Positions 20,811 through 23,986 of a stretch of 64,000 nt of DNA are shown piece after piece (the first letter of the stretch is position 1; the number at the start of each line of letters is the position of its first letter). The DNA comes from an uncultured Alphaproteobacteria bacterium. Its GTDB lineage: Bacteria > Pseudomonadota > Alphaproteobacteria > HIMB59 > GCA-002718135. The stretch spans positions 1-64,000 of the forward strand of contig CACKSN010000005.1 in assembly GCA_902602845.1 (NCBI GenBank). The letters run 5' to 3'. Below the pieces are notes generated by a model that worked only from the letters and a program-made list of their open reading frames with translations, did no database searches and was not told the DNA's origin. The translations under genes and the position numbers were made by a program.

Positions 20811-21968
20811 ATGCAACTTTCAAAAAGAATATTTCAATTAGAAACTGAAACCGCCTTTGCAGTACTTGCAAAAGCTAATAAATTAGCTTCAGAAGGTAAG
20901 GATATTATAAATCTTGGAATTGGGCAACCTGATTTTAATACACCAATTAATATTCAAGAAGCAGCTATTAAAGCAATCAAAGATGGTAAACATGGATATA
21001 CTCCTTCAAATGGAATACCAGAGTTAAGAGAAGCAGTTTCTAATAAAGTATATGATGATTATCAAGCTAAAATAAATCCAGAAAATATTTTAATAACTCC
21101 TGGTGGGAAGCCGGTTATTTTTATGAGTACATTGATTTTAGGAGGCTCAAATAAAGAAATTATTTATCCAGATCCAGGCTTTCCTATTTATAGATCAATG
21201 ATTAAATACAGTGGTGCTAAACCGGTTCCATTATTTTTAGATGAAAAAGATAACTTTGAAATTAATTTAGACAAATTAAAAAATTTGATTACTGATAACA
21301 CAAGTCTAATAATTATAAATAATCCAAATAATCCAACAGGATCATTTATGAAAAAAAATAAAATTGATGAACTAATAAAAATTTTTAAAGAATATCCTAA
21401 TTTATATATTTTGAGCGATGAAATCTATAGCAAGATTATATTTGATAATTTACAGATGCCGTCTTTTTTAAAATATGATGAACTATTTGATAGACTTATT
21501 ATCCTAGACGGTTGGAGCAAAACTTATTGTATGACAGGATGGAGACTAGGCTGGAGCATTTGGCCAACTAAGCTTATTGAGTTTGCAAATAAACTTTGTG
21601 TTAATAATCATTCTTGTCCAACTTCAATATCTCAATATGCTGGGCTTGAAGCCCTAACTGGACCACAAGAAGAATTAAACAAAATAGTTTTAGAGTTTCA
21701 AAAACGAAAAGAATTTGTTTACAAAGAGATAAATTTATTAAAAAATATTTCTTGTTTCAAGCCTGGAGGAGCGTTTTATGCTTTTCCAAACGTTGTGAAA
21801 ACTGGATTGAGTGGAAAAGAGTTTTCTGATATAGCTTTGGAAAAAAAAGGTGTTGCACTGGTACCTGGCAATAGTTTTGGTGATAAAGCTGATAACTTTG
21901 TTAGAATAAGTTTTGCAAATTCTATAGAAAATATCGAAAAAGCTATTAAAAGGATATCTACAATATGA
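20811..21968 (+). CDS. PLP-dependent aminotransferase (class I/II, aspartate aminotransferase-like)
   Basis: 385 aa; INNPNNPTGSFM, SDEIYSKI, DGWSKTYCMTGWRLGW (PLP-Lys). Confidence 0.88.
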   Translation: MQLSKRIFQLETETAFAVLAKANKLASEGKDIINLGIGQPDFNTPINIQEAAIKAIKDGKHGYTPSNGIPELREAVSNKVYDDYQAKINPENILITPGGKPVIFMSTLILGGSNKEIIYPDPGFPIYRSMIKYSGAKPVPLFLDEKDNFEINLDKLKNLITDNTSLIIINNPNNPTGSFMKKNKIDELIKIFKEYPNLYILSDEIYSKIIFDNLQMPSFLKYDELFDRLIILDGWSKTYCMTGWRLGWSIWPTKLIEFANKLCVNNHSCPTSISQYAGLEALTGPQEELNKIVLEFQKRKEFVYKEINLLKNISCFKPGGAFYAFPNVVKTGLSGKEFSDIALEKKGVALVPGNSFGDKADNFVRISFANSIENIEKAIKRISTI

Positions 21969-22306
21969 AAAAAATTGAAGCCATAATAAAACCTTTCAAA
22001 TTATCAAGTGTAAAAGACTCACTTCATGAACTTGGTATATCAGGAATGACCGTTATAGATGTTAAAGGATTTGGAAGACAGAGAGGCTCTACAGGAGGAA
22101 TTGATACCAATGATAATTATGATGATGAATTTTTAGCAAAAATGAAATTAGAAGTAATTATTGAAGATAATCAAGTAGAAAAAGTTATTGAAGCCATAAA
22201 AACTACCGCATATTCTGGCAAAATTGGTGATGGGAAAATATTTGTTTCCAATATTGAGCAGGTAATTAGAATAAGGACTGGTGAAAAAGACAGTGAAGCT
22301 GTCTAA
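21965..22306 (+). CDS. glnB: Nitrogen regulatory protein P-II
   Basis: 113 aa; MKKIEAIIKPFKLSSVKDSL, B-loop SGKIGDGKIFV, C-term RIRTGEKD; T-loop apex divergent. Confidence 0.9.
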   Translation: MKKIEAIIKPFKLSSVKDSLHELGISGMTVIDVKGFGRQRGSTGGIDTNDNYDDEFLAKMKLEVIIEDNQVEKVIEAIKTTAYSGKIGDGKIFVSNIEQVIRIRTGEKDSEAV

Positions 22307-22349
22307 TTTTACTTTACTTTTATTAAAAAGTTAGTATTTAAGCCATAAT

Positions 22350-22401
22350 CGTTCAACTCATTGTGAGTCGGAAGTAGGTGCTTTAAGTGCTGAAGGAACG
22401 C
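22350..22401 (+). promoter_or_regulatory. Glutamine riboswitch (glnA RNA motif), copy 1
   Basis: CGTTCA-ACTCA-TTG-TGAGT-CGGAAGTAGGTGCTTTAAGTGCTGAAGGAACGC: P1 CGTTC/GAACG, P2 ACTCA/TGAGT, conserved CGGAAGTAGG and GAAGGAACGC. Confidence 0.9.
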
Positions 22402-22418
22402 ATGCAAAAGTTATAAAT

Positions 22419-22468
22419 CGTTCAATCTACAATGTAGATCGGAAGTAAGTTTAAAACTGAAGGAACGC
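22419..22468 (+). promoter_or_regulatory. Glutamine riboswitch (glnA RNA motif), copy 2
   Basis: CGTTCA-ATCTAC-AAT-GTAGAT-CGGAAGTAAGTTTAAAACTGAAGGAACGC: same core, different but still complementary P2. Confidence 0.9.
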
Positions 22469-22509
22469 GCATCAAAAGCAGATTTCATAACTAGAGCATG
22501 ATTTAACCG

Positions 22510-22550
22510 GGTAAAGCTGGAAAGCTTACCTTTTTGTTGAAGTAAGGAGA
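22510..22550 (+). promoter_or_regulatory. Candidate expression platform: two mutually exclusive hairpins over the glnA Shine-Dalgarno
   Basis: GGTAA-A-GCT-GGAA-AGC-TTACC hairpin plus U5; alternative CTTAC(22525-22529)/GTAAG(22542-22546) overlapping AAGGAG SD. Confidence 0.5.
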
Positions 22551-22555
22551 TAGAT

Positions 22556-23986
22556 ATGAAATTAAAAAGCTCGACTCCAAAAGATTTAATGTCTGAAATA
22601 AAAAACATGGACATTAAAATGGTTGATATGCGCTTTACTGATATACCAGGAACAACTCAACATTTTACTATACCTATTAAATTTTTAGACGAAGATATTT
22701 TTTCTGATGGACTTGGATTTGATGGATCTTCAGTAAGAGGTTTCCAAGAAATTCAAGACAGTGATATGATAGTTTTGCCTGATGCAACTACTGCATACAT
22801 TGATCCATTTTTTTCTGAAAAAACTCTAGCCTTGCACTGTAATATTAAAGATCCAGTAACTCTTGTAGATTATAGCAGAGATCCAAGAAATATTGCTAAA
22901 AAAGCTGAAGAATATCTTAAATCATCTGGAATTGGTGATACAGCTTACTTTGGTCCTGAAGCTGAATTCTTTGTTTTTAATAATGTTCAATTTGATTCAG
23001 GTTCAAACTTTGCTTTTCACGAAGTTGATTCCACTGAAGGTACATGGAATAGCGGCTCAGATGAAAATCCAAATCTAGGTCACAAACCTAGACATAAAGA
23101 AGGTTATTTTCCTTTACCACCAGTAGACACACTTCAAGATGTAAGAACGGAAATGGTAATGACAATGCAAGACATTGGATTAACTGTTGAGGCACATCAC
23201 CACGAAGTAGCAACAGGTGGTCAATGCGAAATTGATTTAGAGTTCTCTCCTTTATTAAAAATGGCAGATGATATGATGAAATACAAATATGTAGTTAAAA
23301 ATGTTGCAAAGCAACATGGAATGACAGCTACATTTATGCCTAAACCCTTGTTTGAAGATAATGGTTCGGGGATGCACGTTCATCAAAGTGTTTGGAAGGG
23401 TGGAGATACACTTATGTATAAAAAAGGTAATTATGCAAATTTAAGTGATTTAGCTCTTAACTATATTGGTGGTATCCTAAAACATGCGCCTGCACTTTTA
23501 GCATTTTGCGCCCCAACTACTAACTCATACAAAAGATTAGTTCCTGGTTTTGAAGCTCCAGTAAACATTGTTTACTCTCAAAGAAATAGAACAGCATCAG
23601 TAAGAATACCAGCTTACTCCCAGAGCCCAAAATCTAAGAGAATGGAATTTAGATGTCCAGATCCTTCAGCAAACCCATACTTAGCATTTTCAGCAATGTT
23701 AATGGCAGGGTTAGATGGAATAAAAAATAAAATTGATCCTGGAAAACCAACAGATATAAATCTCTATGCTGCTAGTGATGACGTGTTATCAAAGATACAG
23801 TCAACCCCTGGATCATTAGCTGAATCTCTTGAAGCACTAGAAAAAGATCATGCTTTTTTATTAGAGGGTGATGTATTTACTAAAGATGTAATTGATACCT
23901 ATATTAGCTATAAAAAAGAAAATGAGGTTGATCCAATTAACATTAGACCTCATCCACATGAGTTTAAATTATACTATGATGCGTAG
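22556..23986 (+). CDS. glnA: Type I glutamine synthetase
   Basis: 476 aa; [49 protein letters not shown]. Confidence 0.97.

Follow-up and report, generated by a model that had tools for sequence, protein, structure and literature searches.

In Proteobacteria the glutamine sensor is GlnD, and the GlnD-PII-GlnE cascade reports glutamine to glnA and to ammonium uptake. An RNA sensor of the same amino acid, the glutamine-I riboswitch (glnA motif, RF01739), has been reported in environmental sequences with glnA, PII and ammonium transporter genes (PMC2864571, PMC6316151). A 2018 review termed the class restricted to cyanobacteria, where the characterised switches activate expression, and stated that the associations with glnA, PII and ammonium transporters had come to light only in environmental sequence data from uncultured strains (PMC6316151). 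Tandem copies are also on record: a 2022 survey filed 157 doublets and 4 triplets as pseudo-cooperative (PMC9481103). Another system of similar design is the tandem glycine riboswitch, in which two homologous amino-acid aptamers, separated by a short linker, serve one expression platform. Since the literature already reports both the class and the tandem arrangement, neither is new here. Within the literature that could be searched, the proposed helix of the linker, a platform shared by both aptamers, the identity of the host genus, its regulon of four loci and the coincidence with GlnD and GlnE loss, all described below, appear to be new, although an earlier description of the helix is conceivable.

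The DNA analysed, a 64-kb stretch referred to here as the window, carries glnB, a 249-nt gap and glnA, all on the + strand. glnB (21965-22306) encodes a PII signal protein of 113 aa (PF00543, 115 bits; 29 relatives compared), and glnA (22556-23986) a type I glutamine synthetase of 476 aa (TIGR00653, 662.8 bits), whose Shine-Dalgarno sequence, AAGGAG (22544-22549), precedes its ATG (22556) by 6 nt. At the end of glnB a hairpin followed by a T-rich tail (22288-22304), terminator-like by consensus match only, suggests that glnA may have a separate transcript. The initial annotation had placed two tandem glnA-motif riboswitches in this gap, in what it took to be a streamlined alphaproteobacterium, and had proposed a covariance-model search. 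Using cmscan against all 4227 Rfam families, we found both units above the RF01739 gathering cut-off of 35 bits. Aptamer 1 (22348-22404) scored 56.4 bits (E 9.3e-10) and aptamer 2 (22417-22471) 60.4 bits (E 7.5e-11), both E-values being for 64 kb and all families. The extent given earlier, 22350-22468, was thus right in location and slightly too narrow in its bounds, which run from 22348 to 22471. Both aptamers span model positions 1-53 of 53, that is, the full length, and their alignment to RF01739 includes P1, P2, P3 and the conserved core, CGGAAGUA and GAAGGAACG. The pair is situated in the 5′ leader of a nitrogen-metabolism gene. The Glutamine-II model RF01704 gave a partial match of 12.4 bits, below its cut-off of 33, and no other Rfam family among those scanned had a meaningful score in the gap. 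Membership of both units in the glutamine-I class is therefore firm, and, with two full-length matches well over the cut-off, the earlier observation was right far beyond chance. Its description of the host is also supported, and its remark that the motif is best known from cyanobacteria and marine metagenomes accords with published work (PMC2864571, PMC6316151).

The P2 stems of the two units, ACTCA/TGAGT and ATCTAC/GTAGAT, pair as the annotation had claimed. In a set of 28 representative leaders both strands of P2 and of P3 vary while their pairing is kept, and in each of the two alignments 0 of 500 shuffles attained the whole-structure covariation score. A one-off local duplication of a single aptamer in the window was rejected because the genus has doublets at four loci. 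Beyond what had been noted before, we found a conserved linker, a conserved downstream element and repetition of the whole arrangement at the other loci of the genus.

Linker and element are near-invariant in all 157 distinct doublets that we collected (that the survey, PMC9481103, also counted 157 is a coincidence of number). The linker reads GCATGC, one to three A, AGTTAT; the element, shortly 3′ of aptamer 2, has the form TTTCATAACTAGAGCATGA at glnA and TTTCCATAGCTAAGCATGA at ammonium transporter (amt) and cpATP-grasp (circularly permuted ATP-grasp) loci. In the window the element lies at 22483-22501; 51 of 61 genus genomes contain it when up to 2 mismatches are allowed, and most of these matches have 0. 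The two sequences are complementary, CATGC to GCATG and AGTTAT to ATARCT, around a small A-rich internal loop. In the window the linker (22401-22414) is complementary to 22487-22500: the 5′ strand comprises CATGC (22401-22405) and AGTTAT (22409-22414), the 3′ strand ATAACT (22487-22492) and GCATG (22496-22500). The proposed helix of 11 pairs, P0, begins at the base adjoining P1 of aptamer 1, thus abutting that stem, and encloses aptamer 2.

The predicted linker-element duplex has an energy of about -11 kcal/mol in every leader class; for each of 72 distinct combinations, only about 0-1.3% of linker shuffles matched or beat it. RNAalifold recovered P0 unprompted in two separate alignments, one of glnA leaders and one of amt/cpATP-grasp leaders. 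In the window the computed probability of P0 was 0.16, and it rose to 0.99 once the aptamers were constrained to their bound-like fold. Under the same constraint it was at least 0.59 in 24 of the 28 representatives and remained low in leaders L180, L197, L214 and L176. P0 is nearly invariant, and covariation therefore barely tests it. The few variants are a wobble change from ATAGCT to ATAACT against AGTTAT, one G-U (L141), one lost pair (amt leader L178) and the loss of the last two pairs in four glnA representatives with the linker GTTTGAAT. P0 is a likely helix, and we infer that it forms in the cell.

A subgroup of glnA leaders (L042, L182, L197 and L198) has GTTTGAAT in place of GTTATAAA as linker, and the stretch before the element is AGAACTTTC in place of GCAGATTTC. 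In these leaders AAAGUU of the linker might pair with AACUUU, possibly as a coordinated shift of P0. In the alignment of amt and cpATP-grasp leaders P3 of aptamer 1 is usually GAAA-capped (GACGAAAGUC), as it is not at glnA, and the internal loop of P0 differs in parallel, AA/AA at amt and cpATP-grasp and AAA/AGA at glnA; a tertiary contact is possible.

The element is more invariant than pairing needs, including at the internal-loop bases and the preceding TTTC(C), as might be expected if it were mainly a site for a protein, a small RNA, a transcription factor or a third ligand, with the complementarity to the linker secondary. We regard this as unlikely: the linker complementarity is present in all leader classes, and the element accompanies doublets, being absent from the three single aptamers that precede a third ammonium transporter among the loci examined in the genus.

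The initial annotation had read the tandem as giving a steeper or two-input response. The literature class for tandem glutamine-I pairs, pseudo-cooperative, under which the 157 doublets and 4 triplets of the survey stand (PMC9481103), would make them two independent, complete riboswitches in series, each having a separate platform, for a steeper response, with linker and element unrelated to coupling. Against such independence, the aptamers of the doublets lie just ~12-18 nt apart, with no terminator or Shine-Dalgarno sequence between them (in the window the gap is 12 nt, by terminator scan and sequence), and the near-invariant linker is complementary to a conserved element beyond aptamer 2. 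Two independent switches are thus improbable here. The window holds two homologous aptamers with no platform between them, a feature of the glycine-type architecture of two aptamers and a single platform. Because no terminator or Shine-Dalgarno sequence separates the aptamers and the linker is predicted to pair with the element beyond aptamer 2, we favour two aptamers on one shared platform over two complete switches. The class, the tandem and the host named in the annotation stand; on the meaning of the tandem, the sequence suggests a more specific reading, a shared platform. The locus thus resembles the reported tandems in having two glutamine-I aptamers in series and differs from them in showing no sign of a second, inter-aptamer platform. 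It is like the tandem glycine riboswitch in its two homologous aptamers, short linker and proposed single platform, and unlike it in aptamer fold and ligand and in that the predicted inter-aptamer helix encloses aptamer 2; coupling here is predicted.

The order after aptamer 2 is element, a covarying hairpin, H, and the Shine-Dalgarno sequence. In the window H (22502-22541; fold z = -2.1) has an inner stem GGTAA-GCT/AGC-TTACC and an outer stem TTTAAC/GTTGAA. In relatives its sequence varies freely while the fold is kept with different stem sequences (z to -4.7). A run of T follows the inner stem in the window (22509-22531, then T residues), so that H could be an aptamer-controlled intrinsic terminator and control transcriptional. 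H, however, was not reported by the terminator scan, the window's U-tract sits within the outer stem, and relatives (for example L180, L181, L197 and the amt loci) have H without a U-tract. As the U-tract is missing outside the window's own subgroup, termination is a poor candidate for the general mechanism; we rejected it as the general platform and consider it very unlikely for the window.

At amt leaders TTTCCAT, just before the 3′ strand of P0, pairs with the Shine-Dalgarno sequence ATGGAG(G/T/A) at -5.1 to -8.6 kcal/mol, with shuffle fractions of 0-0.08 in amtB2 and amtB1b and 0.01-0.2 in amtB1. The pairing is weak at glnA of the window (-4.0, shuffle fraction 0.3), where TTTC (22483-22486) is possibly a weak anti-Shine-Dalgarno sequence, and cpATP-grasp leaders have none worth naming. 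Sequestration of the Shine-Dalgarno sequence is accordingly suggestive at amt leaders and weak in the window, and we did not adopt it as a proven mechanism. In nested folding, accessibility of the Shine-Dalgarno sequence went from 0.74 to 0.55 in the window, with almost no change in most relatives; nested thermodynamics was uninformative for the choice between ON and OFF.

In cyanobacteria, glutamine riboswitches of both type 1 and type 2 turn their genes on (PMC6316151), and here too glutamine binding might expose the Shine-Dalgarno sequence. The cyanobacterial targets, however, are glutamine synthetase inhibitors, whereas here they are glutamine synthetase and ammonium transporters, for which, by pathway logic, activation would be positive feedback. 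We thus doubt activation and, from end-product logic, infer translational repression.

We therefore propose, with somewhat more confidence than doubt, that the glnA leader is a composite glutamine riboswitch with two glutamine-I aptamers on one platform, standing in for the lost GlnD and GlnE. Glutamine would fold both aptamers, and the folded aptamers would let the linker pair with the downstream element as P0. Enclosing aptamer 2 and abutting P1 of aptamer 1, P0 would feed both aptamers into a single structural decision. The platform (P0, hairpin H and the Shine-Dalgarno sequence) would most likely lower glnA translation at high glutamine, as end-product feedback. At amt leaders TTTCCAT could pair with ATGGAG of the Shine-Dalgarno sequence, closing an H-type pseudoknot on P0. 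The same module would control two ammonium transporters and the cpATP-grasp operon and would, in this genus, take the place of the lost GlnD/GlnE glutamine-sensing cascade.

RF01739 was found in 48 of the 49 genomes of the window's genus, with 2-8 matches each, and in none of 32 genomes of the sister family of the same order. Those relatives that carry a name are recorded as uncultured Alphaproteobacteria and come from single cells (AG-... isolates). The sole genus genome without a match, G015 (82% complete), also lacks a PII match, which could mean no more than that its assembly does not cover the locus. Among 387 genomes drawn across the class, RF01739 was confined to this genus and one other, unrelated family (f10), there in single copy. 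It occurred in 146 of 243 cyanobacterial-class genomes, no two within 150 nt of each other among the matches listed. No related leader was found in a phage collection. The doublets of the genus lie before glnA, before two ammonium transporter genes that neighbour each other and encode the 'marine subtype' (TIGR03644), and before the cpATP-grasp operon; one genome of 96% completeness (G253) has eight matches, which form four doublets. The third ammonium transporter, present in few genomes, has a single aptamer. In the unrelated family, a single riboswitch precedes the same cpATP-grasp gene. The leaders are like the glutamine-I riboswitches described before in their full-length model match, conserved core, P1-P2-P3 and association with nitrogen genes; unlike in earlier reports, they belong to a defined alphaproteobacterial genus, the copies at glnA, amt and cpATP-grasp are doublets, and there is an apparent helix between linker and element.

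GlnD was detected in 0 of 49 genus genomes against 29 of 32 in the sister family, and GlnE in 0 of 49 against 27 of 32. Most genus genomes are 53-89% complete; GlnD is also absent from four further genus genomes of 90-96% completeness. The PII T-loop reads GSTGGIDTNDNYDDEF in the window versus the canonical GHTELYRGAEYVVDF in the sister family; in the genus it has the form GSTGG(I/M)DxxxxYDDEF, with a variable tip and, in one case, F in place of the tyrosine. Similarly, the adenylylation motif of glutamine synthetase is NLYDLPPEE in the sister family versus IN(L/I)Y(A/E)A in the genus, and is degenerate in the window (INLYAASDD). The altered T-loop and synthetase site fit a loss of covalent control of PII and glutamine synthetase. 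The module would do the same job as the cascade, reporting glutamine to glnA and ammonium uptake, but as an RNA sensor at the mRNA level.

Loss of GlnD and presence of the riboswitch fall essentially on one branch of the tree and could be a coincidence. Cyanobacteria provide a second co-occurrence: they carry the riboswitch and are likewise without the known glutamine-sensing enzymes (PMC6316151). In f10, GlnD is found in three of four genomes alongside the single riboswitch on cpATP-grasp, and the two can thus coexist. In this free-living marine genus, a composite RNA locked by the linker-element helix may have displaced GlnD (and GlnE) and become the glutamine sensor of glnA and the genes for ammonium uptake, a proposal we make tentatively. 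The genus, across whose nitrogen-uptake genes the switch recurs and where neither GlnD nor the synthetase modifier GlnE was found, is one identified marine alphaproteobacterial source of the environmental glutamine riboswitches. It makes two questions testable: whether the central glutamine signal can pass from a protein cascade to an RNA as a genome is streamlined, and whether a shared linker helix makes two aptamers cooperative.

The genus T-loop exceeds that of the sister family by one residue. Genomes of the genus have a single PII gene, those of the sister family usually two. No genome of either clade reached the NtrC family cut-off. Most genus genomes encode an NtrC-type response regulator (449 aa, 189 bits, below the cut-off; G000:C9:24186-25487), which we treat as a related response regulator; the sister family gave just shorter matches to the first part of the NtrC profile.

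The cpATP-grasp operon under the tandem riboswitch in the genus also encodes alpha-E and transglutaminase-like proteins. The occurrence of a tandem riboswitch before it in the genus and of a single one before its first gene in f10 (L113:1200-4639; L224-L227) suggests a link of the operon to glutamine or nitrogen status. The f10 leader has a Shine-Dalgarno sequence, GAAAGAG, complementary to CTCTTTC 3′ of its aptamer. The cpATP-grasp leaders (L113:1322-1450 and others) contain an upstream open reading frame of 17-20 codons, which runs up to or next to the point where the main gene begins (TGATG or TAA-atATG) and so suggests translational coupling of the two; its own Shine-Dalgarno sequence sits in the loop region of the leader hairpin.
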